Origin: a virus | Direction: 5' to 3' (one strand) | Virus record (IMG/VR): IMGVR_UViG_3300034198_005002 | Coordinates: 1-30,060 of that record | DNA: 30,060 nucleotides | Shown: positions 1,158-25,434 of the stretch, piece by piece | Layout: every line of letters begins with the position of its first letter | Position numbering within the stretch: the first letter of the stretch is position 1 | Notes under the pieces: model-generated | The model's input: only the letters and a program-made list of their open reading frames with translations | Told to the model about the DNA's origin: nothing | Databases searched by the model: none | Translations under genes and position numbers: made by a program

Positions 1158-1817
1158 ATGACATCCCAGATCGGAATGACATTCAATGAGCTGCAAGGTG
1201 ATGTAAGAAATTACCTTGAGCGCGGGTATTCTGCCGAAGTTGACCCCATTGTCTATGAACAGATTCCGAGACTGATCACTCTTGCCGAACGTCGCATCTC
1301 GCGTGAACTGAAGATCCAAGGATTTCAGGTTGTCACCACATCACAGATGGTGGCTGGGCTTGCCGTATATCCAAAGCCTGACAGGTGGCGCGAAACCATT
1401 TCCATGAACTTCGGGACTGGTGCAACATACAATACACGCAATCCCATCTTTCCACGTTCGTATGAATATGTGCGCAACTTCTGGCCTGATGAAACCGTCC
1501 AAGCTGCCCCTCAGTTTTACGCCGACTACAACTACACAAACTGGATTTTCGCGGCAACGCCTGACCAGAATTACCCATTTGAAGTCTTGTATTACGAGCT
1601 TCCACCGCTTCTCAGCACAGAGCAGCAGACAAACTGGCTGACAGAATATGCTCCGCAGCTCATCCTTTATGGTGCATTGCTGGAGGCAACTCCATTCCTC
1701 AAGAACGATGAGCGTATTGGGGTGTGGAAAAACTTTTACGACGATGCCAAAGCCTCTCTCAATACAGAGGACATCAAGAAGATCACAGATCGTTCTACGT
1801 CAAGGACGGAGGCTTAA
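1158..1817 (+). CDS. Head-tail adaptor protein (SU10 adaptor-like)
   Basis: A 219-aa protein that probably forms the adaptor ring between portal and tail in a short-tailed virion. The N-terminal part (MTFNELQGDVRNYLERG, then YEQIPRLITLAERRISRELK) has the helical pattern of podoviral adaptor/gateway proteins such as those of SU10 and phiEco32-like phages. The middle contains PDRWRETISM and aromatic-rich beta-like segments, and the C-terminus is helical (LILYGALLEATPFLKNDERIGVWKNFYDDA, given as a region near residues 168-197). Ribosome site AAAGGA lies at 1144-1149. It sits directly before the tail genes, as expected. The assignment is from remembered family pattern, so the exact subfamily is uncertain. 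Confidence 0.65.
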   Translation: MTSQIGMTFNELQGDVRNYLERGYSAEVDPIVYEQIPRLITLAERRISRELKIQGFQVVTTSQMVAGLAVYPKPDRWRETISMNFGTGATYNTRNPIFPRSYEYVRNFWPDETVQAAPQFYADYNYTNWIFAATPDQNYPFEVLYYELPPLLSTEQQTNWLTEYAPQLILYGALLEATPFLKNDERIGVWKNFYDDAKASLNTEDIKKITDRSTSRTEA

Positions 1818-5182: not shown

Positions 5183-5418
5183 TCGGCATTAACCCAATAA
5201 TGATGGATGTCTTTGAGTGGACCGACAAAATGGCCCCTGAACTCATTAAAAATGGGGGATATTTGGGCCGTCTGGAAGATCCAAAGCAATGGCGGGAATG
5301 GGCAAGATCTGTTATGCTTATTAACAATGAGTGGCAGGGATATGTTCCAGATCCATATGAGTTTGACGATTGGCGTGATTGGGCTGAAAGATTGCTCCAA
5401 ACTGTGACAGGTGAGTAA
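5179..5418 (+). CDS. Small conserved phage protein of unknown function (79 aa)
   Basis: A short acidic, tryptophan-rich protein whose ATG overlaps the preceding stop as ATGA. Visible motifs are EWTDKMAPELIKNGG, DPKQWREWARSVM and DPYEFDDWRDWAERL; the Trp-containing repeats suggest a small helical protein that packs against a partner. I recall similar short genes lying between nozzle and internal-protein genes in other podoviruses, but no function is known to me. Its last codons (GGT GAG TAA) also supply the AGGTGAG ribosome site of the next gene, so translation of the two is tied. A minor virion component or assembly chaperone is a guess from position only. Confidence 0.7.
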   Translation: MIGINPIMMDVFEWTDKMAPELIKNGGYLGRLEDPKQWREWARSVMLINNEWQGYVPDPYEFDDWRDWAERLLQTVTGE

Positions 5419-5419
5419 G

Positions 5420-6541
5420 ATGGTCGATACATTTCCTGTGTCTGTAAATTTCTCTGCTCAACCTGAAAAATATGCCCGTGGCGGTCTGAACGAAGCCGCC
5501 AATCGTGTCAGCAAAGCTGGCCAGCATGATGATACCATGATCGTCCACATCAATAAGGACGAATACGAATGGATGAAGCAGCAGTTTGGTGAGCCTAAGA
5601 TCAACCCGCAGACAGGTGTTCCTGCGTTTAGCTTCTGGGATGATGTCAAAGATTGGGTGGCTCCAGCTGTTGGTATTGGGGCAACTTTGCTTGGGGCTGG
5701 CGATTATGTTGGATCAGGCGTCAATGATGCGCTTGGCCTTGGTCTTTCACCGACAGCAACAACAGCGGTTGGAAGTGGATTGCTTGGTGCTGGTGCTGGT
5801 CTGTTGACTGGTGGTGGTGCTAAAGCCGCATTGATTGGTGGTCTTGCTGGCGGCGCATCTCCCTACGTCATTAATGCTCTTGGGTTTGGTGCAGCTCCTT
5901 CTGTTGGCAGCGCAGCGGCTAATGCTGCAACGACTGCTGGTGGCGTGAAAGATGTAAGCATCGCCGATGCTACTGGGTCCACCGGCGGAAACGCCGGAGC
6001 TAATGTTGCTGCAAAAGGTGGAACCAGCATCTTGGACAGCCTTATGGGCGGTAAATCTCCAGACCTTATGAAAATGGCTCCTCTTTTGCTGCTTGGAGCA
6101 GCGGCTGCAAGTGGTGGCGGTGGCCATAAAACCTCTATGGCTGGTCAGGAAGATGCCAATGCAGCCAATGCTGGCATGAAAGAACACCTATCAAATGTTC
6201 CATTCGAGCGCAAGCAAACTGGATACAAGGCCGATACCAACTATGGTTACGGCCCAGCTCATGCTTTTTTTGAAAACAATAGGCTTCCAGCAGCACAAGG
6301 GCGATACGTTCAGGGCGGCGGCACTGGCACATCTGATAGTATCCCTGCCAGATTGTCAGATGGCGAATATGTGATTGATGCTCAAACAGTCTCCATGCTT
6401 GGCGATGGTTCGTCTGATGCAGGGGCTAAAAAACTTGACGAAATGCGTGAAAATATACGAAAACATAAAGGCAAAGCATTGGCTCAGGGCAAGTTTGCTC
6501 CATCTGCCAAAGGGCCGCTTTCTTATGTGAAAGGAGCTTAA
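5420..6541 (+). CDS. Gly/Ala-rich candidate internal virion (ejection) protein
   Basis: A 373-aa protein. The N-terminus carries ARGGLNEAANRVSKAGQHDD and INKDEYEWMKQQFGEP. A long Gly/Ala/Leu-rich, weakly hydrophobic core spans roughly residues 70-235 and could insert in or cross a membrane. The C-terminal part holds GGTGTSDSIPARLSDGEYVIDA followed by SMLGDGSSDAGAKKLDEMR, a motif I recognise from phage virion-associated proteins just upstream of large ejected proteins. Its position between tail genes and the giant protein supports an ejection role. The ATG at 5420 is chosen because AGGTGAG (5409-5415) fits it; a GTG at 5411 in the same frame lies inside that ribosome site. No enzymatic motif is seen. 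Confidence 0.6.
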   Translation: MVDTFPVSVNFSAQPEKYARGGLNEAANRVSKAGQHDDTMIVHINKDEYEWMKQQFGEPKINPQTGVPAFSFWDDVKDWVAPAVGIGATLLGAGDYVGSGVNDALGLGLSPTATTAVGSGLLGAGAGLLTGGGAKAALIGGLAGGASPYVINALGFGAAPSVGSAAANAATTAGGVKDVSIADATGSTGGNAGANVAAKGGTSILDSLMGGKSPDLMKMAPLLLLGAAAASGGGGHKTSMAGQEDANAANAGMKEHLSNVPFERKQTGYKADTNYGYGPAHAFFENNRLPAAQGRYVQGGGTGTSDSIPARLSDGEYVIDAQTVSMLGDGSSDAGAKKLDEMRENIRKHKGKALAQGKFAPSAKGPLSYVKGA

Positions 6542-6543
6542 CG

Positions 6544-7683
6544 ATGGGTATGCTTGATTTCCTTTTCCAAGGACAAGTTCCTCCTGCTACGACAACATAT
6601 GGTAACTCAACGACGGGCATCCCGACGTTTATGACTGACTACACGCTTGGCCTTTTGAACAAAGCCAATGCTGTATCAGCAGAGCCATTCCAGTTGTATG
6701 GAGGCCCACGCCTCGCTCAGTTCACCCCAGAGCAACAGCAAGCATTTTCCCAGACGCAAAGTTCTGTTGGCCAATATGCTCCTACATTTCAAAATGCTTT
6801 GGACACAACGAGCAACGCAATAAAAAACAACAACGCATCTGCCGCTGCCAACCCATTTATTCAACAATCTGGTCAATCTGCTGCGGATGTCGTTGGCGGA
6901 TATATGAACCCATATATGTCCAATGTGACTGACCAGCTTGCTACTCTTGGGGCAAGAAACCTTAAAGAAAAATTGATGCCAAGCATCAACTCAAACTTCA
7001 TTCGTGCTGGGCAATATGGCTCAAGCGCAATGCAGGGTGCAGTTGGTAAGGGGTTACGCGATACTCAGGAAGCCGTCCTGAATGAACAAGACAAAGCATT
7101 GCAGCAGGGCTACAACAATGCAATGACTGCGGCACAGAGTGATCTTTCCCGCTATGGGAACCTTGGTCAGCTTTCTGGAAACCTTGCTTCTCAGACAGCG
7201 CGTGATCAGCTTCAGGCAGCTGGGCAGATGGGAACTCTGGCGAACATGGGCCAGACTGTTAACTTCAAAGATCTTGCCGCTCTTGAAGCTGTCGGTAATA
7301 CACAGCAACAGCAAGGTCAAAAAAGCCTTGATATGGCTTACAATGACTTCATGCAGCAGCGTGATTATCCCAACCAGCAGCTGTCCATGCTCAACGCACT
7401 GATCCGTGGCTTGCCATATGGAACCCAGTCAACTTACCAGAACGTCGGCCCTGCAAGCCAATATGGCGCATCGCCATTGTCGCAGATGATTGGTGGATAC
7501 TCTCTGTTGAACGCTTTCAGCGGCAAGGCAGAAGGTGGTAAAGTTGATGCTGTGGCAGACATGAAAGCCCCACTTGCTCAGGTAGCAAGCATCGACCCTG
7601 ATCTGTCCAAGGTCAAATTTGCCAAGGGTGGGCAGAAGAAGCGGAACAACAATCGTCGCTCAAGTCGTGGTCGCGGGAGATAA
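6544..7683 (+). CDS. Candidate internal virion protein with basic Arg/Asn/Ser-rich tail
   Basis: A 379-aa protein rich in Gln, Asn, Ala and Ser, with a long predicted helical region (about 60-270) containing repeated QQ and AA pairs. This is a composition common in phage ejection proteins. Recognisable segments include YGGPRLAQFTPEQQQAFSQ and NPYMSNVTDQLATLGARNLKE. The last 16 residues, QKKRNNNRRSSRGRGR, are strongly basic and could bind DNA or RNA. A short GGKVDAV/FAKGG motif precedes it, echoing the ARGG of the previous gene. AAAGGAG about 8 bases upstream supports the ATG at 6544. Function is inferred from position and composition; no enzymatic motif is visible. Confidence 0.6.
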   Translation: MGMLDFLFQGQVPPATTTYGNSTTGIPTFMTDYTLGLLNKANAVSAEPFQLYGGPRLAQFTPEQQQAFSQTQSSVGQYAPTFQNALDTTSNAIKNNNASAAANPFIQQSGQSAADVVGGYMNPYMSNVTDQLATLGARNLKEKLMPSINSNFIRAGQYGSSAMQGAVGKGLRDTQEAVLNEQDKALQQGYNNAMTAAQSDLSRYGNLGQLSGNLASQTARDQLQAAGQMGTLANMGQTVNFKDLAALEAVGNTQQQQGQKSLDMAYNDFMQQRDYPNQQLSMLNALIRGLPYGTQSTYQNVGPASQYGASPLSQMIGGYSLLNAFSGKAEGGKVDAVADMKAPLAQVASIDPDLSKVKFAKGGQKKRNNNRRSSRGRGR

Positions 7684-7686
7684 GTC

Positions 7687-8388
7687 ATGGCCGATTCAAT
7701 GAATCCCTTGCAGGATCTGTATAACTTCAATAAGCAGCGCGAAGCTATGCTGCAAGAAGCACAGAACAAGCCGCAATCCATGCTGGGCAATGTTGATCCT
7801 GTCATGTTGGCGATTGCTGGAGGCATGTTTGCCCCCACCAAGACTGGTGGTTTTGGTGAAAGCATTTCCAATGCGGCCAATGCAGCGGCTGGCCCACTGA
7901 GGGCTATCCGTGATCAGCAGACTGCAGCTCAGGATAAGCAAGCGCAACTTAAAGAAGCGACTGCCCGTCTGTGGCTGATGCAGCAGAAGCAAGACAGAGA
8001 TGCTGAAAACGGCCCAGACAGTGCGGATCTTGCCCGATATACAAATGCTCAAAAAACATATCGTGAAATGTATGGGCTTGATAATCCTTTGCTGATTGAT
8101 CTAAGAACAGGACAGCCTAAAGCCGGGAAAGAAGATGAATACGCTAAGAGGCTAGAGCAGTATAATACAGCCATGAAACGATATGAGGATATGCTTGCTC
8201 AGAAGGGAGCTGGCAGAGGTGCTGGGGCTGGTTCTGGTGCTGGGGCTGGTAGAAGTGGCAATAATTCTCAACCACAATCTTCTGGACAGCCTTTGCAAGA
8301 AGGCCAAATCGTATATGATAACAGAGGCGTTCCGCATAAAGTTGTTAATGGCGGGTTTGTTCCGGTTCAGCAGCCAAAAGGTGAGTAA
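7687..8388 (+). CDS. Candidate internal virion protein (233 aa)
   Basis: A Gln/Ala/Gly-rich protein. The N-terminal half is helical and probably coiled coil (LQDLYNFNKQREAMLQEAQNK; LRAIRDQQTAAQDKQAQLKE), with a short hydrophobic stretch PVMLAIAGGMFAP near residues 38-50. A Gly/Ala/Ser-rich linker (GAGRGAGAGSGAGAGRSG, about 172-190) separates this from a small C-terminal beta segment (GQIVYDNRGVPHKVVNGGFV). GGGAG upstream supports the ATG. The final codons GGT GAG TAA form the ribosome site of the giant gene. By order and composition it is the third of a set of virion proteins likely ejected with the genome, but I do not recognise a specific family. Confidence 0.55.
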   Translation: MADSMNPLQDLYNFNKQREAMLQEAQNKPQSMLGNVDPVMLAIAGGMFAPTKTGGFGESISNAANAAAGPLRAIRDQQTAAQDKQAQLKEATARLWLMQQKQDRDAENGPDSADLARYTNAQKTYREMYGLDNPLLIDLRTGQPKAGKEDEYAKRLEQYNTAMKRYEDMLAQKGAGRGAGAGSGAGAGRSGNNSQPQSSGQPLQEGQIVYDNRGVPHKVVNGGFVPVQQPKGE

Positions 8389-8390
8389 TA

Positions 8391-11300
8391 ATGGTCGAGC
8401 TTCCTTCAGGATGGTCAGCATCACCCCCCACTGCATATCTGCCTGAAAGATGGTCTGTAAATCCACCTCCTGCTCCTCCTCGTCGCCCGACTGAACAAGC
8501 TGAAGCCCCACAGGCTGAAGCTCCTTCATTTACGGAAACTATGGCACAGCCTCCTGTTGCCTATGATCCAATGACGGGTATGCCTATTCCTGCTGCTCCA
8601 AGTGTGGAAAACAAGCCTGACCTCACCACAATTCCCGGCGTCGCATACTATAGCGGGGCTGCAAACCTTGGTTCGCAAGACCCTGCCGATGTTGCTGCAC
8701 TGCAACGTGATCTTGATGCGATTGCGAAACGTGAGGCCGAACGCGCCAAAAATCCGACCAAATTCAGCAAGATCGAAAAAGAGAAGGGCTTCATCGCAGC
8801 CGTTCAGGAAGATCCCGGCGGCTTTGCTAAGGAAACAGGGCAAAGCATGGTCGAAGGCATTGTGCCTATGGGTGCTGCTATCGCTGGGACGATGGCTGGT
8901 GGTCCGGCTGGTGGTGCTGCGGTTGGTGCATTTTCATTCGGCGCAGATGCCTATGCTCGTGCATTGATTGATCAGACCCGCAAGCGCGGTGGTGATCTCA
9001 GTGACGCCGAGCAGTTCAATGCCGTTTATATGAAGAACAAAGCTGACATTGATGCAGCGGCTATGAAGGAAGCTGGCATCTCTGCTGCTCAGGGTGCGCT
9101 TTATTCCATGATCCCCGGCGGCGGTGGTCTCAAGGGTATGCTTGGCCGAGTTGGGGTGGCATATCCATCTATCGGGATAACCGGATCTGGCGCAAAGCGT
9201 TGGGTCAATGACGAAGAGCCAGCGACCGGAGAAGAGGTTCTCAAAGAATATTTGCAGGGTGTAGCAACCGGATTACCGTTTGAGGCTCCGGGATTGCTCC
9301 CCAATGGCGGTGGCCGTCCGAAAGGCCCACCATCAAACCGTTTGCTGGAAGGCCCACAGGGCGGTGGTCGTGGACCTGAAGGTGGTGCGCCACCGGAAGG
9401 TGGACCAGCTGGCGGCGGTGCTGCCGAGCAACCACAGGCTCGTAACCAATCCGTCACCGAAGCAGAGATCCTCAAGGGCGGTCAATTCTCTGCCGATGAC
9501 ATCGCCATTATGAGTCCACAGGAACGGGCTGCAACGGCTCGTGATCTTGCACAGCAGGGTGTAAAGCCTGAGTCGCTGACTACCGAAGAATACAACCAGA
9601 TCTTCAAGCCACGCACGACGGTCGAAGATCTGCTTGATAAGACAGGCAGTAAAAAGGGCTTTGAAGAGCGGAAGAAAAAAGAAACAGAAGAGCGGATGAC
9701 CCGCCAAGAGATCGAGACAAAGAATGAGTTCTTTGCCGTCTTGAAGGGCGATGGTCTTTCTGCTCAGGAAATTGGCCAGCTCTCTTGGCCTGAAGTGGCT
9801 GAACGGGTTCGTGACATCAGAAGGCGTAAAGCCGACAAGCCAATCTCTCTTACCCCCGAAGAGAAGATTGAACTCAACTTGCCTTTGACGAAGGCTGATC
9901 AAAAAGCCTTGGACAAAAAGACTCCACCATCCACCCCCCCGGCTGGTGTTGAGGGGCGGGGGCCGGAAACTCCCCCGGCCTCCGTTTCCCCAGAAGGCGG
10001 CACAAAGCCAGCGACTCAAACACAAACATCTACAGATACAGGAACAACAACTACGGCTACGGCCACGATTGAGAAACCAGCGACAGATCTTGATGCTCTG
10101 GCAGAACAGATCCGTCGGCAGAAGGAAAACGAAGAGCGTGGTGGCCGTCCTATTGATGATGTTGTCAATGAGTTGCCGAGAGACAAGGATGGCAATCCAG
10201 ATTTAGCCGTCCTTCAGGATGAGATTAAGAAGCGGACGCCCAATGATCGGGGCAATACGCCGTGGGAAAACCTTGCTCCTTGGGTGCAAGATGACATCAT
10301 CAAAGGGTTGCAGTCGCTTCGCCCACCAGTTCCAGAGGAAACTACCCCACCGGAAACTCCTAATGTTGACGAGCAAAAACCTACCGAAAAGAAGCTGCTT
10401 ACAGCAGATCTTTTTAACGACATAACTAGCAAAGATCCTCGTATTCAAAGCGTTGAAGCTGATGGTGATGAAGATTATACGGTAACATTAAAAGATGGGT
10501 TCTTGTTCCCAAATGGAACAAACACGGAGTATTTTGCTGGACCGACGCACCCATCCAAAACGTCAGATACAGTTGATAGTCTCCAAAACAGTCTTAGCAA
10601 AATTACTGGAGCTGAAAAACCGTCTGTTAAAAAGCCGACTGCGGAGCCAGAGACTACACCTGTCGAACATGCGTTTACGTTCAAGACATCCAAAGGCTCT
10701 GAGTATGAGATGACAACGGATGGCAAAACCATCCGCAACAAAGCTCCTCGTCCAGAGCATCCCGGCGATGAAGGCATCAAGCCTCAGAGCGAAAAGACTG
10801 TGTTTTTGGATCGTAATGGCGCAAATGCACTTGCCCCGCCCGATAACAAAGAGTGGGCAATCGTTGATCATAACGATGGCACTGCAACGCTCGTCACCAA
10901 AAACCCTGACGGCAAGTGGGGTGCGTCCCCATCTCAGTCAAAGGTTCCATACACAAACACTCCTGAGATCGGCAAATATCCTCTTGAGTTGTGGAAGGGT
11001 GAAAAGACTAAGGTCGTTGATGCAAACGGCAATGTTCCGTCATTCTTTACGACAACCCACTTTGGCAATGAGATTGTTTCGGTAAACCAGTATGCCGAAA
11101 TGCCTGAGCAACAGAAGCCTCAAGGTGGCAAAGGTGAAACTGCGACTCCAGAAGAAGCCGCTGCACCAGAGGAAACCAAGCCCAAAGAAGAGGAAGCTGT
11201 AACACCTCCGACTCCTCCTTCCGAGGAAGAGAAGCCAAAACCCAAGGAAGAAGTAGCAGAAGAAGAAGAAGCTGCCCCCCCTGCCGTTGAGCAGCACAAG

Positions 11301-14300
11301 GTGGACTATGACTTCTTTGGCCCTAACACCAACAAGATCGACCACATTGCAGGGACGGTTTACCCATATCTTCAAGATGGCAAAGAGTCTGGTCTTGATT
11401 TTCTTCAGATGGGAACACTGAGAAACCATCCGAAGATCAAGGGATCTTCTGACAAGGAAATTCAAGAAGGTGTTGAGCTTGCCCTTGTTGTTCTTGCCCG
11501 TCAGGTTGCACTGAACGATCCAAGATTGCCTCAATGGATGCAAGCCGACACGCCTCAAGGCAAGTTCGATGTCTTGCAAAAGGTATATGATAGCCAACCA
11601 AAGCTCACTGCTCGGACTAGCGAAAGCATTGCCAACCAAGCGTATTCTACGCCGATTCCGCTTGCCTATGTGGCATCCCGCCTTGCTGGAGTTAATTGGG
11701 ACAAGAGCGTTCTTGAACCTACGGCTGGCAATGGTGCGCTTGTCATTGAGGCCAACCCTGAGCATACGACGGTCAATGAGATCAACCGTGTGCGCCGTGA
11801 TAATCTCAAAGCCCTTGGGTTTACGAAGATTGAGTCGAAAGATGCGTCAGATTATAACTTTGTCAGAGGAAAGTTTGACGTAGTCATTGCCAATCCACCG
11901 TTCGGAGCAGTCAAAGCTGAGAATGGAAGCACCAAATCATTCAACATGGATTGGGTTCGGAATGGCTATCAAACATCTGAGATTGATCATGCCATATCCC
12001 ATGCTGCATTGGATCACATGGATGCCAATGGCAACGCTGTCCTGATCATAGGCAGCGTTCATCCTATGGCCGTGACGGATAAGGCTAGGTCTGATGCTTA
12101 CAATGGCAAAGCAAAGCGTGAGTTCTTCAAATCGCTGTATGACAATTACAATGTGACTGATCACTTCACCGTGGCTGGCAAACTGTATGAAAGACAGGGT
12201 GCTGCATGGCCTGTTGATGTCATCGTAATCAAGGGTAAGGGCAAATCTGCTTTGCCGCTTCCTGCCGCAAAAGTTCCACCACTCCTCACATCTTGGGAGC
12301 AGATTAAGGAGAAGATCCCTAATGAGTCCGAAACAACAACTGTATCAGCACCTTCTGTCTCTGTTTCAGAAACTGGAGGGGAAGGAGCTGGAACAAGAGC
12401 AGGATCTAGTGGACGCCCTAATGTTCAAGGGGGGAATACTAACAAGCCGACCAAAACTGAAACCACTGAAGATATTCGTGGCAAACTTGACGTTGAACAA
12501 CCCGAATCTGGATTGGGCGTTGAACCCGAAGAGCCTGAAGATGGCACTTCAGAGCAAAAGTCCGAGCGATTCAATAAACTGGCTAATACCAAACGAGCCG
12601 AACTGAAGCACGAAGAGGAAACTGAAACACAGCTTCCTTACATACCGAAGGCTCAACAATCTGCTGGATTGGGGACTCTTGCTCCGGCCAATATGAAGTC
12701 GGCAATGGAATATGCCCTTGATGCTTTGGAAGATAAGCGCGGGGATATTGATGCTTTCGTTGCAGATCGTTTGAAATATAAGCCAGAGGAACTGGAAAAG
12801 TATTTTTCAGGAGAGCAGATCGACGCCCTTGCTTTGGCGATTGATAACCTTGAGAAAGGCGCAGGGTTCATCATTGGCGACCAGACAGGAATCGGTAAAG
12901 GCCGTATCAATGCTGGCATCATTCGCTATGCCTTGATCAATAAGTTGACCCCAATCTTTGTCACCGAGAGGGATAACCTTTACAAAGATATGTGGCGAGA
13001 TATGTCGGATGACGAAGGTATTGGTTTACCAAAATACCTTGGCCGCGACCCCAAAATCCTTATGACAAATGTCAGTCCACCAATCGACCTAGATGATAAG
13101 GAGGATGGAAAAAAACTTACCACCCCGCCAAATCAGGAAAAGATTTTCAGGGATGCAATCGAAGCAAAAAAGCTACCCGGATATGATATAATTTTTACCA
13201 CATATTCGCAGATGCAAACGGTTAAAGGGCAAACCACCTTGCGCCGCGATTTTTTGCATAGCATGGCTAGTAGCTCAATCCTCATTTTAGATGAGAGCCA
13301 TAATGCTGGTGGGGCAGGTGCGGCAGCTAGGAAAGAAGAGGGACCACTTAACAGGGCTGACTTTTCCCGTGAACTTGCGCAGCTCTCGCAAGGAACATTT
13401 TACTCATCGGCAACATTTGCAAAGCGTCCAGACGTTATGGATCTTTATGCAAAAACTGATATGGGCCTTGCAGTTGGAAACATCAAAGATCTTCCAGAGT
13501 TGCTGACAAGAGGCGGTGTGCCTTTGATGTCTGTGCTTTCGGCAACGCTTGCCAAGGCTGGGCAATATATGCGCCGAGAGAGAACTTTTGCTGGCGTGAA
13601 ATATGATGCAAAGTTAGTTGGTGTGGATGAGGAAATCTATAATGATTTTTCTCGTTCAATGGGGCTTATCAACACATTCTCAAGGTATGCTAAAGAATCT
13701 GCACAACTTATATCTGAAGAAGTCAGGGCAGACGCAGAGTCAGTAAGTCCTGATGGATCTACAGGTGGGGCAGGAGCAGAATCGACAAACTTTACGTCGA
13801 TTATGCACAATCTCATTAACCAGCTTTTGCTGGCGATGAAGGCAAAACCATCTGTCGAAATTGCCCTCAAGGCCATTGAGGACGGGCAGAAGCCAGTTTT
13901 GACTGTTGCCAATACGATGGAAACATTCTTAAAAAAAACGGCTGATGACCTTGGCTTGTCTATTGGTGATACGGTTGAGCTGACATTTGGAGATTTGCTT
14001 CTCCGGTATCTTGATCGGACAAGGACTATCACTATCAAACCGCCTTACATGAAGAAGGGTGAAAAAGGCAGAAAGCATTATTTGACGGACGAAGATCTTG
14101 GCCAATGGGGTGTCGAGGCATACGATCATGCTAGAAACCTTATTGAAAGCATTGACTTTGGAGATCTGACAATTTCTCCGATTGACTTCATTAAGTATGG
14201 GTTGGAGAAAAAGGGTTATAAGGTTGGTGAAATAACTGGACGCCAAGTTATCCTTGACTATAGCGGCGGTGATGGCAAAAAACGGACTGGCCAAAATAAG

Positions 14301-17300
14301 TTTGGCGCACCTGTCCTTGCTACCCGTCCGGGGAACGCAACAACTGCAAGAGGCAAAAACAAAACAATCTCTGACTTTAATAGCGGAGAATTGGATGCGA
14401 TTGTCATTAATAAGTCTGGATCGACTGGCCTTTCCCTTCACGCAAAACAGGGATTCAAGGATGTTCGTCAGCGTCATATGATTATCGTTCAGCCAAACGA
14501 AAACATTGACACTCACATGCAGACACTTGGTCGTGTTCACCGAACAGGTCAGGTCATTGTTCCTGAATACACTCAAATGGTTGCCGACATTCCGGCAGAA
14601 AAACGTCCTGCTGCTGTGCTTGCAAAGAAAATGGCATCACTCAATGCCATTACGACGTCAGCCCGTAAGAGCGCGTTGACCGCTGAGAATATTCCAGATT
14701 TCTTGAATGAGTATGGTGATCTGGTTGCATATCAATTTATGCAGGATAACCCTGAAATACCTATAAGGCTTGATATTGATATTCGGGAAAACTACGAAGG
14801 CGACAGGCGACAAGGGGTGCAACAGGATGTAGAAAATCTTATGGCTAGGCTTACTGGCCGTATTCCGTTGCTGGAAATCCATGATCAGAAAGCTATCTAC
14901 GAAGATCTTGAGGCCAGATATGCAGATCTTCTTGCCCAGCTTGAGCTGCAAGGAATTAGCACCTTGGAAGCCAAGAGCCTTGATCTCAAGGCGAAGATCA
15001 TTGAAAGTGCTGTTGCTCGTGATTCAACGGGAGATAGCCCGTTTTCCGATGCTGTTGTCTACGGGCTTTATAACGTGAACCGCCTTGGCAAGCCCATCAC
15101 AGCAAGAGATGCAATCAATAAGGTTCTTGACGAGCAAGGGATGGGTAGCTTTGCACAGCAAGTTTCTTTCCCAAAAGTTTCGTTCAAAAAGTTTGACCTT
15201 AAAGACGTATCTGGTTGGTCTGACGAGGACTATCTTACCAAAGCTCAAGCATTTGAACGGAATGATGTAACTGCACTAAACGATCTTAATAATATGTTTG
15301 TCAAAAAACATATTGATTTGATCAAGGAATACCGGGAAAAATTTAATGGTTACGTTAAAGAATCCCTTGATGACCTTAAGGATCCAGATAGCAAAACAAG
15401 AGTTAAAGATAAACTTGATACGCAAGAAAGATTCTTTTTGGCATTTGCCAAAATGCTTGTTCCCGGTCGGCGAGTTCGCGTAACATTGCCATCCGGCGAA
15501 ACTGGACAATCTTTGATCGTAGGGTTCAAGACATCTGATAGGTCGATGAACCCCTTTGTTCCGAGCAACTGGACGGTGACATTGGCGTTCCCGTCTGGAT
15601 CTCCGATAATGAATATCAAGTTGAGCCAGATGCAGGCTGGTGGAGAGTCCGAAGAGAGAGTTGTTATAAATGATTTAGACCGGAACCGAGTCACCGATAA
15701 GGCTGAATCGTTTGTCGAAACATTTGACATGCTTGCCAAGGGCGGAGCCAAAGAACGTCGTGTTATTATTTCAGGGAATATCCTTGCTGGGTTTGATATT
15801 AATCGTGGCCAAGGACAGATCATCAACTTCACAACAGAAGATGGTAGCATTAAACAAGGGATCTTGCTTCCTCGCAAAATTAAATCTCTTGAAGATGCTC
15901 TGAAGATAACAAAGACTAAAATAAAGACAGTAGCTGATCTAAAAGCTGCCGTTAATAGTGCGCCAAAGAAATTTATTGTAAGTAGCGATGACGCATCTGT
16001 TCTTATCAAACAGGAATATACCGGGTATCAGGTTAGCGTTAACAGTGCAAAATCTAAAGGCGGCGCATATTACCTTGATGGAAAATTAAGGGAAATTCTT
16101 GGAGGCTCTGGGTTTTACTCAAACGGCAGAAAAATGACCACGCCTTATATCTCCAGAGATAAAGCGGATCAATTTTTTGAGCGGATACTTGAGATTGGAG
16201 CCAACTTCGAGGGTGCTGCCAATGTTAACAAAACCTCATATTCGGTATTACGTCCTGCGCTTAAAACCGAAACAGCCCATGTGATCCCTGAAGCCTACAA
16301 AGAGTTTGAAGGCATCATCAAAAGGACACTGGGTGAGAAGGCCCGTGTGACGTTCGTAGATCAGATCAAAATCACGGACTCACAGGCTGCGATGGATTCC
16401 GGTGGCGAGTTGGACGATTTTGCTTCTGGTTCGCATGATCGCCTGACGAACATGATCTATCTGGCCACAAGCCTTGAGCATGGTGCATCGCTTCCTGATG
16501 CGACATACCATGAAGCATGGCACTCTCTTGAGGATAAATTGACCCCTGAAGAGCGGAAGATCATTGCTGATGCTCGTCCTGAAAATAACCGCCTTGTTGC
16601 TCGGTATTACGGTGTTCCTCTTGAAAAGATTGAAGCCCTGTCAACGTCAGAGCAAGATGCCTATGCAATGGGGATGTTTGGGGCCAAGACTGATGATAAC
16701 ATGCCCACTGGCGGAATGGGCCGTGATTTATGGAATGTATTCCACAAAGTCTGGATGACCTATCGTCGGTTCCGTAATGTCGTAAACAAGCTATTCGGCA
16801 AGAAAAGCATGGACTCGATCTTCAATGACTTCTATGTCGGCGGCATGGCTGATCGTCTGGATATGGAAGCCGATGTCATGGCCGATAAGATGGGCGTCAA
16901 GACCTCGGATCTTGCCTATATGGCATTGCGTCAAAAGAAAAAGGTGCAGCCTAGTTACGAAGTCCACGAGGACACTCTTAAATCAGAATTGATGTATGGC
17001 CTCGTTAATAAGTATAACGACATCTCTATGATCCAACGTGCCATTGAGAAGGCGCGTGGCTCTAAGCTGCCTGAGACAATGGATGTTGAGATGGCAACTG
17101 GCCTGTTCAACAATCGTGTCATTGCCCGTCAGGAACAGGTCTGGGACAAAGAGCTTCAGCCATTGCTGGATGAGATGGCAAAGCTGAAACTCAATGAAGA
17201 TGATCTGGCTCGGTTCCTGTATGCCCGTCATGCTCCAGAACGTAATGCTAAGATGGCAAAGCGTGATCCTGTCCGATTCCCTCATGGTGGATCAGGCATG

Positions 17301-19712
17301 GAGAATGATGATGCAGAGGCCATTCTTGATGACTTCAAAAGCAGGGGCTTATACAAAACACTGTCCATTTTGGATAGGGACTATATCCGTCCCCTGATTG
17401 AAAATGATCTTGATGAACGTCTTGCTGCTGGTCTGCTGACACAAGATCAATACGATGATTATACAAAACCTTACGATGAAGGTGGATATGATCACTATGT
17501 GCCGTTGCGCGGTTATGCCGAGCAGGATGCAGACGCAAAAGAAAATATTAGTAGGCTTGGCCGTGGGTTCAGCGTATCAGGCAAGGAATATAAGGCTGCT
17601 ATGGGCCGCAAGAGCGAAGCCTATAATCCATTCCAGAACCTGATCCAGCAGCGTATGGATGGCATCGTTCGTCAGGAAAAGAACAGGGTTGACCGCGCTC
17701 TTTATCTCCTGATCAAGAACCATCCAAATGTAGATTTTGCGGAGATCCTCGACAGCAAAAATATGCCGATGGTCAAATACCTTGCGGCAGATGGCACTGT
17801 CCGTCAGCGTCCTGATACCAGCATTTATCGGGCTGAAGTTACTATCCCGTTCAAGATCAGCGGTGAAAGCCGTTACATCGTGTTCAATGATGAGAACCCT
17901 GCAATGGTTCGCTTGGTCAAATCATTGAAGAATCTTCCAAATGATTCGCCATCGAAGCTGGCCAAATTCACGTTTGAGATTGGCCGCTTCATGTCAAAGA
18001 TCAATACAGCATGGGTTCCAGACTTCTTCCTAACCAACTTCCCACGCGATTTGCAGGACGCAATGATTGCCCTGTATGGAACCAAGGAAGGGTTCGCCAC
18101 CAACTTCATGACTGAACTGGCTGGTGCAGGGAAGATCATTGCCAAAGCCGAAACGGTTGGCGGGTTAAGCACACAAGACAAAGCTCTTTATGATGAGTGG
18201 GTCTTAAGCGGTGGCCGCTTGGAGTATGGTGGCTTTGAAAACTTAGATAAGGTTCAGAGCAAAATCAGCCGTGAAATGTTCAAAGCCTTCTATGACAAGA
18301 AAACTGTCAACGAGAAGATCATGAACGGCATGATGGAGTCTGGGCGTCTAACCATTGCAGCTTTGGAAAAGACAAACCAGATCTTTGAAAACACCGTTCG
18401 CTTTGCCGTCTATCTTGCAGCTCGGAAGGGTGGATATACAAAGGGACAGGCTGCTGATCTGTCTCTCAACGCCACTGTTAACTTCCAGAAGAAGGGCGCA
18501 TGGATGCCGGGCCTTAACGCCATCAAGCCGTTCTTGTCGGCTGGTGTTGGTGGTATCCGCAACTTTGCGCGGCTCTTGATGTCCAAGAGGTTCCGTAGGG
18601 CTTTGTATGGAATAATTTTCTTAGCTTTCCTGACTGGCCTTCTTGGCGTCTGGATGAATGATGATGACGAAAATGAACCCGGCAAAAACACTTACTACAC
18701 TCAGGTTAAAGGCTGGGAACGCTCGAAGAATGTCATCATCCCAATCAAGAACAAGGATGGAGGCTTCTACAAATTTAATCTTGGCTTCTTGCTCAACTCA
18801 GCATGGAACATCGGCGACTATATGGCGGCGGTGTCCACTGGGAACATGACACCGAACGAAGCAGCGGTTGAAATTGCTGCAAGTGCGGTTGATTCATTCA
18901 ACCCAATGAGCCAAGGATCTTTCTGGTCTGCAATCTTGCCACTTGGTGTTCAGCAAATCGTGCAGCTCTCTGTCAACAAGGATGCTTTTGGCAATCGCAT
19001 CCACCCAGAGGCAGGGACAAAGAACGCAGAGAAGCCAGCATCTGAGCAATATTCCAGCAAAACTCCAAACTGGACGGTTGATCTTGCAAGCTGGCTGAAC
19101 CGGATGACTGGTGGCGATGAGTTCGAGAAGGGTAAAATTGATCTTTATCCGGGAACCATTGACTATTGGGCAAAGAGCCTTGCTGGTCAGACTGGTCAGT
19201 TTGTTCAACGCACATACAAGTCTATCAATGAAGGTCTTGAAGGAATCCCAACTCCCTTTGAAGAATCTCCGCTGCTTCGGCGTCTTGTTACAAAATCAGC
19301 TGGCATCAATGAAGGTGCTTACTATGACAAGCGCAAAGAGATCTTCGCCAAAGAGCAGCTGCTCAACAGCGCATGGGAGGAACTTCATACAAGCGGAAGC
19401 CCTGCGGCAGAGCGCAAGGTTGATCAGCTGACCGAAGAACTTGGGATGAGGACATCTGGCAATAGCCTTGTTCGCAAGAACAGCCTCCCAGATATTATTC
19501 GGAAGAATGATCAGGTTCTCAATGATATGCGTGATACCATCGCCAACATCAAAGGAGACGATACACTGTCTCCTCTGGCGAAGAAGAAGCAGATCACCGA
19601 GATCGAGGATACGATGAAGGAACAGATGGGGGCGACTCGGTATGCCATCAATTCGATGAAGAATGTCGAGAAGTCCCCGCTGCAAAGGCTGAAAGAAGCC
19701 TACAGCAGATAA
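8391..19712 (+). CDS. Giant polyvalent protein: DNA methyltransferase, DarB/Strawberry-notch-like helicase, HEXXH zincin and LPD38-like region
   Basis: A single uninterrupted 3773-codon frame. In order: a Pro/Gly-rich N-terminus with a Gly/Ala hydrophobic stretch (about 139-190); Pro/Thr/Glu-rich linkers (about 300-350, 515-570, 907-967); an amino-methyltransferase domain with LEPTAGNGAL (1108-1117) and NPPFG (1168-1172); an SF2 ATPase of the Strawberry-notch type with Walker A GDQTGIGKG (1496-1504), DESH (1634-1637) and C-terminal LGRVHRTGQ (2046-2054); an HEAWH zinc-protease motif (2707-2711), with Glu2754 in EQDAYAMGMF a candidate third ligand; and a C-terminal LPD38-like region (DFFLTNFPRDLQDA near 3211, NATVNFQKKG near 3360) with a membrane segment near 3403-3423. 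The methyltransferase/helicase pair resembles DarB of phage P1, an ejected antirestriction protein. Position after the internal virion genes suggests packaging and ejection. Confidence 0.9.
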   Translation: MVELPSGWSASPPTAYLPERWSVNPPPAPPRRPTEQAEAPQAEAPSFTETMAQPPVAYDPMTGMPIPAAPSVENKPDLTTIPGVAYYSGAANLGSQDPADVAALQRDLDAIAKREAERAKNPTKFSKIEKEKGFIAAVQEDPGGFAKETGQSMVEGIVPMGAAIAGTMAGGPAGGAAVGAFSFGADAYARALIDQTRKRGGDLSDAEQFNAVYMKNKADIDAAAMKEAGISAAQGALYSMIPGGGGLKGMLGRVGVAYPSIGITGSGAKRWVNDEEPATGEEVLKEYLQGVATGLPFEAPGLLPNGGGRPKGPPSNRLLEGPQGGGRGPEGGAPPEGGPAGGGAAEQPQARNQSVTEAEILKGGQFSADDIAIMSPQERAATARDLAQQGVKPESLTTEEYNQIFKPRTTVEDLLDKTGSKKGFEERKKKETEERMTRQEIETKNEFFAVLKGDGLSAQEIGQLSWPEVAERVRDIRRRKADKPISLTPEEKIELNLPLTKADQKALDKKTPPSTPPAGVEGRGPETPPASVSPEGGTKPATQTQTSTDTGTTTTATATIEKPATDLDALAEQIRRQKENEERGGRPIDDVVNELPRDKDGNPDLAVLQDEIKKRTPNDRGNTPWENLAPWVQDDIIKGLQSLRPPVPEETTPPETPNVDEQKPTEKKLLTADLFNDITSKDPRIQSVEADGDEDYTVTLKDGFLFPNGTNTEYFAGPTHPSKTSDTVDSLQNSLSKITGAEKPSVKKPTAEPETTPVEHAFTFKTSKGSEYEMTTDGKTIRNKAPRPEHPGDEGIKPQSEKTVFLDRNGANALAPPDNKEWAIVDHNDGTATLVTKNPDGKWGASPSQSKVPYTNTPEIGKYPLELWKGEKTKVVDANGNVPSFFTTTHFGNEIVSVNQYAEMPEQQKPQGGKGETATPEEAAAPEETKPKEEEAVTPPTPPSEEEKPKPKEEVAEEEEAAPPAVEQHKVDYDFFGPNTNKIDHIAGTVYPYLQDGKESGLDFLQMGTLRNHPKIKGSSDKEIQEGVELALVVLARQVALNDPRLPQWMQADTPQGKFDVLQKVYDSQPKLTARTSESIANQAYSTPIPLAYVASRLAGVNWDKSVLEPTAGNGALVIEANPEHTTVNEINRVRRDNLKALGFTKIESKDASDYNFVRGKFDVVIANPPFGAVKAENGSTKSFNMDWVRNGYQTSEIDHAISHAALDHMDANGNAVLIIGSVHPMAVTDKARSDAYNGKAKREFFKSLYDNYNVTDHFTVAGKLYERQGAAWPVDVIVIKGKGKSALPLPAAKVPPLLTSWEQIKEKIPNESETTTVSAPSVSVSETGGEGAGTRAGSSGRPNVQGGNTNKPTKTETTEDIRGKLDVEQPESGLGVEPEEPEDGTSEQKSERFNKLANTKRAELKHEEETETQLPYIPKAQQSAGLGTLAPANMKSAMEYALDALEDKRGDIDAFVADRLKYKPEELEKYFSGEQIDALALAIDNLEKGAGFIIGDQTGIGKGRINAGIIRYALINKLTPIFVTERDNLYKDMWRDMSDDEGIGLPKYLGRDPKILMTNVSPPIDLDDKEDGKKLTTPPNQEKIFRDAIEAKKLPGYDIIFTTYSQMQTVKGQTTLRRDFLHSMASSSILILDESHNAGGAGAAARKEEGPLNRADFSRELAQLSQGTFYSSATFAKRPDVMDLYAKTDMGLAVGNIKDLPELLTRGGVPLMSVLSATLAKAGQYMRRERTFAGVKYDAKLVGVDEEIYNDFSRSMGLINTFSRYAKESAQLISEEVRADAESVSPDGSTGGAGAESTNFTSIMHNLINQLLLAMKAKPSVEIALKAIEDGQKPVLTVANTMETFLKKTADDLGLSIGDTVELTFGDLLLRYLDRTRTITIKPPYMKKGEKGRKHYLTDEDLGQWGVEAYDHARNLIESIDFGDLTISPIDFIKYGLEKKGYKVGEITGRQVILDYSGGDGKKRTGQNKFGAPVLATRPGNATTARGKNKTISDFNSGELDAIVINKSGSTGLSLHAKQGFKDVRQRHMIIVQPNENIDTHMQTLGRVHRTGQVIVPEYTQMVADIPAEKRPAAVLAKKMASLNAITTSARKSALTAENIPDFLNEYGDLVAYQFMQDNPEIPIRLDIDIRENYEGDRRQGVQQDVENLMARLTGRIPLLEIHDQKAIYEDLEARYADLLAQLELQGISTLEAKSLDLKAKIIESAVARDSTGDSPFSDAVVYGLYNVNRLGKPITARDAINKVLDEQGMGSFAQQVSFPKVSFKKFDLKDVSGWSDEDYLTKAQAFERNDVTALNDLNNMFVKKHIDLIKEYREKFNGYVKESLDDLKDPDSKTRVKDKLDTQERFFLAFAKMLVPGRRVRVTLPSGETGQSLIVGFKTSDRSMNPFVPSNWTVTLAFPSGSPIMNIKLSQMQAGGESEERVVINDLDRNRVTDKAESFVETFDMLAKGGAKERRVIISGNILAGFDINRGQGQIINFTTEDGSIKQGILLPRKIKSLEDALKITKTKIKTVADLKAAVNSAPKKFIVSSDDASVLIKQEYTGYQVSVNSAKSKGGAYYLDGKLREILGGSGFYSNGRKMTTPYISRDKADQFFERILEIGANFEGAANVNKTSYSVLRPALKTETAHVIPEAYKEFEGIIKRTLGEKARVTFVDQIKITDSQAAMDSGGELDDFASGSHDRLTNMIYLATSLEHGASLPDATYHEAWHSLEDKLTPEERKIIADARPENNRLVARYYGVPLEKIEALSTSEQDAYAMGMFGAKTDDNMPTGGMGRDLWNVFHKVWMTYRRFRNVVNKLFGKKSMDSIFNDFYVGGMADRLDMEADVMADKMGVKTSDLAYMALRQKKKVQPSYEVHEDTLKSELMYGLVNKYNDISMIQRAIEKARGSKLPETMDVEMATGLFNNRVIARQEQVWDKELQPLLDEMAKLKLNEDDLARFLYARHAPERNAKMAKRDPVRFPHGGSGMENDDAEAILDDFKSRGLYKTLSILDRDYIRPLIENDLDERLAAGLLTQDQYDDYTKPYDEGGYDHYVPLRGYAEQDADAKENISRLGRGFSVSGKEYKAAMGRKSEAYNPFQNLIQQRMDGIVRQEKNRVDRALYLLIKNHPNVDFAEILDSKNMPMVKYLAADGTVRQRPDTSIYRAEVTIPFKISGESRYIVFNDENPAMVRLVKSLKNLPNDSPSKLAKFTFEIGRFMSKINTAWVPDFFLTNFPRDLQDAMIALYGTKEGFATNFMTELAGAGKIIAKAETVGGLSTQDKALYDEWVLSGGRLEYGGFENLDKVQSKISREMFKAFYDKKTVNEKIMNGMMESGRLTIAALEKTNQIFENTVRFAVYLAARKGGYTKGQAADLSLNATVNFQKKGAWMPGLNAIKPFLSAGVGGIRNFARLLMSKRFRRALYGIIFLAFLTGLLGVWMNDDDENEPGKNTYYTQVKGWERSKNVIIPIKNKDGGFYKFNLGFLLNSAWNIGDYMAAVSTGNMTPNEAAVEIAASAVDSFNPMSQGSFWSAILPLGVQQIVQLSVNKDAFGNRIHPEAGTKNAEKPASEQYSSKTPNWTVDLASWLNRMTGGDEFEKGKIDLYPGTIDYWAKSLAGQTGQFVQRTYKSINEGLEGIPTPFEESPLLRRLVTKSAGINEGAYYDKRKEIFAKEQLLNSAWEELHTSGSPAAERKVDQLTEELGMRTSGNSLVRKNSLPDIIRKNDQVLNDMRDTIANIKGDDTLSPLAKKKQITEIEDTMKEQMGATRYAINSMKNVEKSPLQRLKEAYSR

Positions 19713-20196: not shown

Positions 20197-20342
20197 GATT
20201 CAAACTCCTGTGTTTTGTCATTGATGACAAGCCATTCCAAGGGCAGCTGAGACCCGTGGTTGATAACAAGAATAGCAATCGCTCTTCCGTTTGGGGTTCT
20301 GACAACCATTGATGGATTAAGCTGAAGCATTTTGGACCTCAT
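20079..20342 (-). CDS. Small protein of unknown function (83-87 aa)
   Basis: An unrecognised protein with a beta-rich first half (MVVRTPNGRAIAILVINHG, LEWLVINDKTQEFESW) and a low-complexity C-terminus rich in Pro, Ser and Ala. Two starts are possible: ATG at 20342, or ATG at 20330 with GAGGT 5 bases upstream, which I favour as giving the proper ribosome spacing. Either start overlaps the end of the DUF6378-like gene. The 3' half is overlapped in another frame by the possible lipoprotein gene, and the low-complexity tail may be a by-product of that constraint. I see no catalytic motif. Confidence 0.55.
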   Translation of the reverse strand: MRSKMLQLNPSMVVRTPNGRAIAILVINHGSQLPLEWLVINDKTQEFESWRTQDIKHYLPLRPSWLDASPPDAPSSFTTVQSSSAIL

Positions 20343-20649
20343 TCAGTTTGGCTTCGACTTCTGCGGTAAACGCATCGTTTGAACGTGATGGAATATCAAC
20401 CAGCTGTGCTGCAATAGCCTGATATGCAGCAGAGTCAACCCAAGAATCTTTATTGCTTGAGTCATGCGCCAAACGCGCTTGTTTAACAGCTGACATGATC
20501 AAAGCCACATCGTAGGGCGTGATGTTCTTGTTGGTGGTCACGCTGGCAATGATAGCAGCACGGGTAAAACTAGTTCTGATGTCACCATAGTCCTTGCCCC
20601 GTCCACTGATTGTCTGCTGTGCTGTGGCCAAAATTTCTTGCGTGTTCAT
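20317..20649 (-). CDS. DUF6378-like protein
   Basis: A 110-aa all-helical protein. Key segments are RGKDYGDIRTSFTRAA, TPYDVALIMSAVKQARLAHD and DSWVDSAAYQAIA, a pattern I associate with the DUF6378 family of phage proteins. These proteins carry conserved Asp/His/Lys residues and are usually encoded near nucleotide-metabolism or nuclease genes; their biochemical role is not established to my knowledge. The ATG at 20649 is chosen because it overlaps the stop of the HNH gene as TAATG and has AAAGGA 11 bases upstream; the frame extends further to 20700, but those residues overlap the HNH gene and look unlike the family. Confidence 0.7.
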   Translation of the reverse strand: MNTQEILATAQQTISGRGKDYGDIRTSFTRAAIIASVTTNKNITPYDVALIMSAVKQARLAHDSSNKDSWVDSAAYQAIAAQLVDIPSRSNDAFTAEVEAKLNEVQNASA

Positions 20650-21023
20650 TAATCTTGTTCCTTTCGTAGAACGACTTGTCCATTCATTTTCCGCTTCCAT
20701 TTGCTGTTCTTCCCAGCTGGAAGCGGCGTCCGTGACTGTTTTAATCCAAGAGTGTTCACCTTTTGACGTTTGGCTTTCGCCGCTGTCTGGTGGTCCACCT
20801 TCGTCTTTTCCGTTGCGCAGCCTATACAGGTTAACCTCACATTATCTTCAGTATCACTCCCACCTAGTTCCAAAGCTCGGACATGCTCAAAGATGAATTT
20901 GCCCGGCCTGAGCTTGACTTCGCACATCATGCACTTGCCATGCTCTCTCTCCCAAATTGATAATTTTACCCTTGGTGATAGCCTCCCCCGTTTGGTAGTT
21001 CCCATATCCTCAACTTCAGCCAT
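20649..21023 (-). CDS. HNH endonuclease
   Basis: A 124-aa nuclease. The HNH/zinc motif is clear: CMMC at residues 31-34, EH at 46-47 in FIFEHVRALELGG, Asn61 in TEDNVRLTC and a second cysteine pair at 66 and 69 followed by TEKTKVD. The two cysteine pairs would bind structural zinc, while His47 and Asn61 line the metal site. The usual Asp-His is Glu-His here. The basic C-terminus (KNSKWKRKMNGQVV) could bind DNA. The start overlaps the end of the preceding gene by 8 bases; a second ATG at codon 7 is possible. It may act as a homing-type or packaging-associated nuclease, or in degradation of host DNA; context favours DNA metabolism. Confidence 0.88.
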   Translation of the reverse strand: MAEVEDMGTTKRGRLSPRVKLSIWEREHGKCMMCEVKLRPGKFIFEHVRALELGGSDTEDNVRLTCIGCATEKTKVDHQTAAKAKRQKVNTLGLKQSRTPLPAGKNSKWKRKMNGQVVLRKEQD

Positions 21024-24492: not shown

Positions 24493-24974
24493 TGAGCGGG
24501 AGCGCGATTATCATGCGCCGCAAGGGCGCAAGGCTAGAGCCTGTCACCGAGGTGGATCGGGAGCTGTTGCTAGACATTCCCGAGGGTGCAGATCTTACCG
24601 TAAAGGTGTCGCGCTCCCGCAGCCCCCGCCAGCACAGATTGTTCTGGGCTTTGTTGCAGTTGGTAGTGGACAATCACGAATATTACCAACGACCAGAGCA
24701 GCTGCTGGAATGGATGAAGGTCAGGCTTGGCTATGTCGATGAGACGGTCTGGCATGACAAACAGGTCTGGTTCAAAACCCGCTCGATTAGCTTCGCCGCT
24801 ATGGGACAGGACCAATTCAAGGAATTTTTCACTCGTGCTGTCGATGTCATTACAACGGATGTCATTCCCGAAATGGATAAAGAGGCATTGTTTAATGAGA
24901 TCTCCACAATGATGGGCGAAAACATGAGGGCTTACTATGTCAATGCAAAACCCGTGGACGATAGGAGAAATTAA
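24492..24974 (+). CDS. DUF1367 / NinB-like recombination-associated protein
   Basis: A 160-aa protein. The motif PRQHRLFWALLQLVVDN (about 45-61), then YYQRPEQLLEWMKVRLGY and RSISFAAMGQDQFKEFF, follows the order I know from DUF1367 and NinB-like proteins encoded next to phage recombination and replication genes. The N-terminus (MSGSAIIMRRKGARLEPVTE) is a short beta extension. It begins at a TAATG overlap with the ERF stop. NinB-like proteins are thought to bind single-stranded DNA or assist recombination; that role here is inferred from family and neighbours. The end overlaps the GcrA start by 38 bases. Confidence 0.7.
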   Translation: MSGSAIIMRRKGARLEPVTEVDRELLLDIPEGADLTVKVSRSRSPRQHRLFWALLQLVVDNHEYYQRPEQLLEWMKVRLGYVDETVWHDKQVWFKTRSISFAAMGQDQFKEFFTRAVDVITTDVIPEMDKEALFNEISTMMGENMRAYYVNAKPVDDRRN

Positions 24975-25434
24975 CATAGCCGTTGAGATGGCCAAGGAGG
25001 GGAAGAGTGCAAGGGCCATTTCAGAGGCATTGACTGGGAGAACTAGGAACTCCGTGATTGGATTACTGCATCGAAGGAAAATCCAGATGAGTATCTTCAA
25101 GTCAAAGCCTTACCCGACGAAGCCACCCAAGGTGGAACGGAAGAAAACTGTCACCCTGTCAACAGAGCCGCCACCCAAGATATTCACCCCCAAGATTAAG
25201 GACGATATTGTTTACGGCAGGGTTAAACTATTGGATGCTGACAAATCTCAGTGTCGGTTTATCGAAGGGAAAGACCTGACATTCGTATGCGGTGATCCTG
25301 TCCACCTTGGTTCGAGCTGGTGTGAGTGTCACTACAAGCGTGTGTTCACACCAGAGTCGGTTGCCAAGGCTGTCTCGGTCGAGATCAAAAGACTGAAGCT
25401 GATGAACCAATGGAAAGATAGACAAAGTTTCTAA
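24937..25434 (+). CDS. gcrA: GcrA-type cell-cycle transcription regulator homologue
   Basis: A 165-aa homologue of GcrA, the alphaproteobacterial regulator that binds sigma70 and adenine-methylated GANTC promoters. The N-terminal DNA-binding part has WTIGEINIAVEMAKEGKSA and TGRTRNSVIGLLHRR (residues 7-46), matching the GcrA helix-turn-helix with its RN-V-IG-HR signature. A Lys/Pro-rich linker (about 55-90) leads to the C-terminal domain SQCRFIEG, FVCGDPVHLGSSWCECHYKRVFTP (given as residues 104-139), with Cys106, Cys118, Cys129 and Cys131-His132 in the expected order. The start follows GAGGG by 6 bases. It sits between recombination and replication genes, so it is probably expressed early. Confidence 0.9.
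   Translation: MSMQNPWTIGEINIAVEMAKEGKSARAISEALTGRTRNSVIGLLHRRKIQMSIFKSKPYPTKPPKVERKKTVTLSTEPPPKIFTPKIKDDIVYGRVKLLDADKSQCRFIEGKDLTFVCGDPVHLGSSWCECHYKRVFTPESVAKAVSVEIKRLKLMNQWKDRQSF

Follow-up and report, generated by a model that had tools for sequence, protein, structure and literature searches.

A virus-encoded polyvalent protein of 3773 residues links a methylase-Strawberry-notch motor pair to a conserved C-terminal module

The 30,060-nt stretch of DNA analysed here (the window), which was taken from an IMG/VR virus record, encodes a giant that belongs among the polyvalent proteins which Iyer et al. described in 2017 (PMC5512222). Biochemically unrelated domains occur in a single chain, namely an N6-adenine methylase, a Strawberry-notch SF2 motor, a zincin-like metallopeptidase and a C-terminal module containing the LPD domain LPD38, and the gene lies in a virion setting of adaptor, structural and ejection-type genes (Table 1). 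The polyvalent nature that an initial annotation had proposed was thus borne out. The best explanation, which we consider probable, is that of a virion-packaged and ejected protein of a short-tailed phage that guards the entering genome. The giant adds to a known protein class, and its domain combination is already present in other phages.

Table 1. Position of the giant gene, its domains and relevant neighbouring genes in the window.
Feature	Position	Strand	Evidence
Head-tail adaptor (SU10 adaptor family), marking the virion gene block of a short-tailed phage	1158..1817	+	Pfam PF24175 E 8.8e-25
Virion or tail-associated gene, conserved upstream partner of the giant	5411..6541	+	PHROG profiles, relatives
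DNA-ejection-type protein gene, two genes upstream of the giant	6544..7683	+	PHROG 4287 'DNA ejection protein' E 1.1e-17
Small gene immediately upstream of the giant	7687..8388	+	conserved in nearest relatives
Whole polyvalent protein gene	8391..19712	+	ORF list; open in relatives L002, L006; purifying selection
Uncharged Gly/Ala-rich hydrophobic stretch near the N-terminus (residues 156-191), possibly membrane-active	8856..8963	+	stretch survey of complete giants
Pro/Thr/Glu-rich variable linker (residues 341-1000)	9411..11390	+	composition; lengths differ among relatives
Gamma-class N6-adenine methylase domain (residues 1050-1300; LEPTAGNGAL 1108-1117, NPPFG 1168-1172)	11538..12290	+	profiles, motifs, alignment, 2okc match
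Strawberry-notch motor, first NTPase half (AAA_34, residues 1476-1748; GDQTGIGKG 1496-1504, DESH 1634-1637)	12816..13634	+	Pfam E 5.7e-16, over cut-off
Strawberry-notch motor, second half (Helicase_C_4 'Strawberry notch', residues 1972-2185; LGRVHRTGQ 2046-2054)	14304..14945	+	Pfam E 6e-23, over cut-off
Zincin-like metallopeptidase (residues 2621-2790); HEAWH (residues 2707-2711) at 16509-16523, Glu 2754 at 16650-16652	16251..16760	+	alignment, predicted secondary structure, spacing to C-terminal module
C-terminal ~900-aa helical module (residues 2855-3773), conserved terminal chassis	16953..19709	+	sequence matches, giant survey, AlphaFold2 model, viral structural matches
Hydrophobic helix in C-terminal module (residues 3399-3422), marginal membrane segment	18585..18656	+	hydropathy, model, relatives
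LPD38 match in C-terminal module (residues 3436-3619)	18696..19247	+	Pfam E 1.7e-26, over cut-off

The gene is intact and its domains are under purifying selection

The open reading frame starts with ATG, has no internal stop and is immediately preceded on its 5' side by a ribosome-binding-like site, AGGTGAG. The uninterrupted 3773-codon frame claimed initially was therefore confirmed, and the motifs claimed with it (LEPTAGNGAL, NPPFG, GDQTGIGKG, DESH, LGRVHRTGQ and HEAWH) were all found at the mapped residues. The full-length frame also stays open in two relatives from other metagenomes that are 89% (L002, part of the 57.9-kb record G001) and 73% (L006) identical. Codon comparison with relatives revealed purifying selection on all four main domains (dN/dS of approximately 0.09-0.15), with values of 0.10-0.15 for the methylase, 0.09-0.11 for the motor, 0.13 for the zincin and 0.11 for the C-terminal module, in contrast to 0.58-0.80 for the linker at residues 1301-1420. 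These low values indicate that each of the four domains is maintained by selection. Neither RNA families nor tRNAs were found in the window.

Methylase and Strawberry-notch motor form a conserved pair

The methylase domain contains the TP motif, the Gly-rich SAM motif and the NPP(Y/F) motif of gamma-class N6-adenine methylases, and in the alignment these features (STP, LEPT.GNG and NPPFG) are invariant among distant relatives; scores for the Pfam families Eco57I, UPF0020 and N6_Mtase were slightly under their cut-offs. The best PHROG methylase match had an E value of 4e-10, and a match was obtained to the type I M subunit 2okc (E 0.0037). Defence-system profiles gave only methylase-type matches, the top one being mad2 over the methylase (E 3.3e-9). 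Ahead of the methylase, residues 850-1110 hold no GxG(G/A/S) motif of LPD36, and no LPD36 profile matched. Both halves of the motor exceeded the Pfam cut-offs for the Strawberry-notch families AAA_34 and Helicase_C_4. Walker A and Walker B are intact, GDQTG.GKGR and DESH being invariant in the alignment of relatives.

In Acinetobacter phage MD-2021a (L008:11218-17178), the methylase-Strawberry-notch pair occurs as a separate gene of 1986 aa, which indicates that the pair moves as a unit. Homologs of the pair are also encoded by stand-alone genes in cyanobacteria and Bacteroidetes, and the function of the pair thus need not depend on injection. Leptolyngbya/Nodosilinea-type cyanobacteria (L105, L110, L117, L129 and others) commonly encode several such proteins of ~1,900-2,800 aa per genome.

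The C-terminal module is shared by many phage giants

An LPD38-like C-terminus was part of the initial annotation, and the Pfam match above cut-off supports it. The AlphaFold2 model of the whole module is mostly helical (pLDDT 84.6, pTM 0.82). No match to the module was found in the PDB, either by sequence or by structure, while comparison of the model with BFVD gave strong matches to other phage giants (to E 1e-49, TM 0.82). Relatedness within the module family extends along the whole terminal ~900 aa; distant phage proteins match most of the module at 23-29% identity, and three PHROG families of giant proteins share the C-terminal region with the window giant. Relatives occur in Stx-type Escherichia phages, in phages of Vibrio and Burkholderia, and in a Methanosarcina virus. 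A bridging family (PTXU04, BA3, VvAW1, Pascal, Lederberg and others) is clearly homologous to the module (profile E 6.7e-64) and links Bacillus and Pelagibacter phages to it.

In a survey of 60 non-redundant giants, the module was terminal in every case, ending at most 48 aa from the C-terminus in 58 and at most 92 aa in all, whereas the length of the cargo ahead of it ranged from 271 to 4443 aa. The membrane segment that had been placed in the C-terminus exists as a hydrophobic stretch at residues 3402-3420 (mean hydropathy 1.54); it is weak, however, and only 30 of 59 relatives reach a value of 1.4. The N-terminal stretch at residues 156-191, absent from the initial annotation, is at least as notable. 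Among 47 complete giants, 14 have a similar Gly/Ala-rich uncharged hydrophobic stretch, and in none of them does it lie beyond the first ~371 residues.

A zincin-like domain lies at the junction of cargo and module

Alignment of 19 giants showed that HExxH and a glutamate 47 residues further on (Glu 2754 in the window giant) are nearly invariant. The structure predicted for this region places three strands after a first helix and ahead of the helices that carry HExxH and the glutamate, which is the order given by Iyer et al. for the peptidases of polyvalent proteins (PMC5512222). Thus the HExxH motif, a third-ligand glutamate in the next helix and a predicted three-stranded sheet are all present, in agreement with the zincin proposed initially. 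No match to this region was obtained from Pfam or from any other profile library searched, and a model of residues 2180-2864 (685 residues, pTM 0.38) had no significant PDB match in a fold search. The zincin assignment therefore rests on the motif, the conserved glutamate and the predicted topology. Profile searches recovered the proposed domains in part: the Strawberry-notch motor and LPD38 scored above the Pfam cut-offs and the methylase families just below them, but the zincin had no Pfam match.

The HExxH motif was found 100-260 aa upstream of the C-terminal module in 22 of the 60 non-redundant giants, whereas 200 shuffles gave 0.1 on average and 2 at most. As this near-fixed distance recurs in about one third of the giants, cleavage at the junction suits the data better than the cutting of host proteins. 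The zincin probably cuts its own chain and would thereby free the cargo; there is precedent for zincin processing in polyvalent proteins (PMC5512222). Cleavage of host proteins by the zincin once inside the cell, which the same authors list as an alternative, appears somewhat unlikely given this spacing, even though conflict systems are known to include zincin effectors and zincins sit at various places in other giants. Action on a host or virion protein, as initially suggested, is thus possible, with self-processing at least as likely. The junctional HExxH is missing in some relatives with the same methylase-motor pair (Bacteroides phage BS-TP4 and Bacteroidales proteins), indicating that cleavage is not essential to the design.

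The domain combination occurs in other phages

The components of the giant have already been described by Iyer et al., including Strawberry-notch motors in a few polyvalent proteins (PMC5512222). Like the window giant, the proteins of that study combine unrelated enzymes with LPD domains, a zincin, an adenine methylase-SF2 dyad and a virion context; they differ in having the Strawberry-notch motor only 'in a few instances' and in an LPD36 signature that was not seen in the window giant.

The initial suggestion that the exact domain combination may be new found no support. Searches with the C-terminal module or with the methylase-motor pair retrieved giants that combine the two from BS-TP4, several IMG/VR contigs and bacterial genome contigs. 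At least eight loci (L026, L029, L034, L035, L069, L093, L112 and L176) also have HExxH at the equivalent place, 100-260 aa before the module. A junctional HExxH is missing from BS-TP4, L061, L074, L107 and several Bacteroidales proteins, which likewise join the pair to the module. As in the window giant, the methylase of BS-TP4 gp3 (5391 aa, annotated as 'hypothetical protein') is followed by a Strawberry-notch motor and then by an LPD38 module at the C-terminus, and the two pairs are 28.5% identical over 1585 residues. BS-TP4 gp3 differs in being ~1,600 residues longer, in lacking HExxH and in that its gene adjoins the portal gene.

The 'DarB-like antirestriction proteins' of Bcep22-like phages (BcepIL02 gp70, JC1 gp69) show the same order, with methylase, SF2 helicase, an HExxH motif that precedes the C-terminal module by 146 aa, and the LPD38 module last (26% identical), and their genes likewise follow virion genes. 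In contrast to the window giant, their helicase is outside the Strawberry-notch family according to Pfam, and they carry a lysozyme-like SLT domain and LPD3. The giant of Ruegeria phage 45A6 (3912 aa) also shares helicase, methylase, the LPD38 module and a zincin that precedes this module by 177 aa; however, its helicase precedes the methylase, it has an extra GNAT domain, and no Strawberry-notch match exceeded the cut-off.

P1 DarB (2255 aa) resembles the window giant in having an N6-methylase followed by an SF2 motor in one virion-type protein, and its role is probably similar. The likening to DarB made initially holds as an analogy with remote methylase similarity but not as clear homology: DarB scored 17 bits against the pair profile, has NVPFG in place of NPPFG, belongs to another helicase family and lacks both HExxH and the C-terminal module. 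Membership of the window giant in the DarB family beyond the remote methylase similarity was accordingly ruled out. Active gamma-class methylases carry NPP(Y/F). With NVPFG, the methylase site of this reference antirestriction protein (L183:10469-17236) may be unusual or inactive.

The gene setting suggests packaging and probable ejection

In addition to the adaptor and ejection-type genes, a virion structural protein (PHROG 3287) and tail-type proteins are encoded upstream of the giant. The adaptor/ejection-type gene set is kept in relatives, and the near relative G001 encodes terminase, portal and head protein. Downstream of the giant, small reverse-strand genes are followed by a replication block (YqaJ, ERF, helicase, primase). 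Among the small genes are an HNH endonuclease-like gene just downstream of the giant (20649-21023, -) and, alongside it, a DUF6378 gene (20317-20700, -).

A GcrA-type regulator is encoded at 24937-25434 (+; Pfam GcrA E 3.5e-10). The GcrA family is known from alphaproteobacteria and reads adenine methylation in these bacteria. This regulator and the occurrence of relatives of the methylase-motor pair in Rhodospirillales, Rhizobiales and Sphingomonas suggest that the host is probably an alphaproteobacterium. The co-occurrence of such a regulator with a giant adenine methylase in one phage is possibly worth a look.

JC1 gp69 (4515 aa; LPD38, methylase, SF2 helicase) has been detected in CsCl-purified virions by 51 unique peptides (PMC9144972), this virion evidence coming from one relative whose cargo helicase belongs to another family. 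Together with the position of the window gene in a virion block, it makes packaging and entry with the DNA appear the most economical reading. The giant would be packed in the virion and would enter the host together with the phage genome by means of the C-terminal module, which, with LPD38, probably anchors the protein in the particle and the ejection machinery; the N-terminal Gly/Ala-rich segment probably touches the membrane. Between these two parts lies the predicted cargo, the N6-adenine methylase coupled to an ATP-driven double-stranded-DNA motor of the Strawberry-notch type. Once ejected, the motor-methylase would probably move along the incoming genome, methylating or occupying DNA and thus shielding it from restriction. 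Packaging, ejection, anti-restriction activity and self-cleavage are what we infer for the window giant. The packaged DNA-protecting protein claimed initially accordingly gains support from the virion setting and from JC1 gp69, and protection of incoming DNA by the pair may reasonably be inferred.

Other readings of the giant were considered. It might be mainly a structural ejection protein, forming an inner-membrane or tunnel part of the ejection apparatus, with the methylase-motor acting as an ATP-driven genome pump and methylation being secondary or vestigial. The gene does sit just past a DNA-ejection-type gene, the C-terminal module is conserved whatever the cargo, and an SF2 double-stranded-DNA translocase is part of the same chain. 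However, most relatives bearing the module have no such motor, indicating that the module works without it, and the methylase motifs are intact and under strong purifying selection; we give the pump little credence. It is unlikely that the giant is an unpackaged cytoplasmic protein which methylates progeny genomes before packaging: stand-alone methylase-Strawberry-notch proteins in phages and bacteria (Acinetobacter phage MD-2021a, cyanobacteria) would fit such a role, but here the pair is fused to a module known from the JC1 virion protein (PMC9144972) and the gene lies in the virion block. Mis-assembly or chance fusion of separate genes, which the unusual frame length and the occurrence of the pair as its own gene in one phage might suggest, is scarcely credible and was ruled out by the dN/dS values and by the presence of the same intact fusion in independent metagenome contigs and in distant phages.

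A possible link to N4 virion RNA polymerase

The virion RNA polymerase of phage N4 (gp50) consists of a membrane-inserting N-terminal domain, a linker, the enzyme, an HExxH domain (C1) and a helical domain (C2) (PMC12633501). The layout of this ejected giant, which ends in a ~1100-aa helical C-terminal part without a known fold, resembles that of the window giant; the two differ in their cargo, which is an RNA polymerase in N4 and the methylase-motor pair here. The module profiles A1 and A3 and the bridging profile A6 all aligned the same segment to the same segment of N4-type C2 domains, with P values of 0.005-0.014 compared with 0.2-0.6 for controls; these three profiles are not independent of one another, with an HH probability of 3-7% over a single segment of ~70-110 residues. 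This segment lies just before the hydrophobic helix of the C-terminal module. Addition of the bridging family did not strengthen the N4 match enough. At module residues ~500-554, the pattern TVNFxRRG...NAxYxFxNAxxQG is similar to EFVNYDxLPGR...GLxWFxxYKIR, which lies close to the end of N4-type virion RNA polymerases.

Homology of the C-terminal module to the C-terminal part of the N4 polymerase is therefore only weakly suggested by these alignments, which provide a lead. Speculatively, and rather doubtfully, the LPD38 module and the N4 C-terminal domain may be one ancient ejection chassis of short-tailed phages. Such a chassis would use a membrane-active N-terminus and a zincin-helical C-terminus to bring exchangeable enzymes into the host, RNA polymerase in the case of N4 and the methylase-Strawberry-notch motor in the window giant, and the zincin would release them.

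Implications

The window giant, whose catalytic motifs are all intact, is a further well-conserved case of a phage protein that probably brings DNA-protecting enzymes into the host. A fixed C-terminal module, common to Escherichia, Vibrio, Burkholderia, Bacillus and Pelagibacter phages and a Methanosarcina virus, can now be separated from exchangeable cargo, and in approximately one third of the giants a protease is placed where the two meet. What was a vague 'multidomain giant' thus becomes a testable delivery design, which raises the question of whether the N4 virion RNA polymerase shares it.
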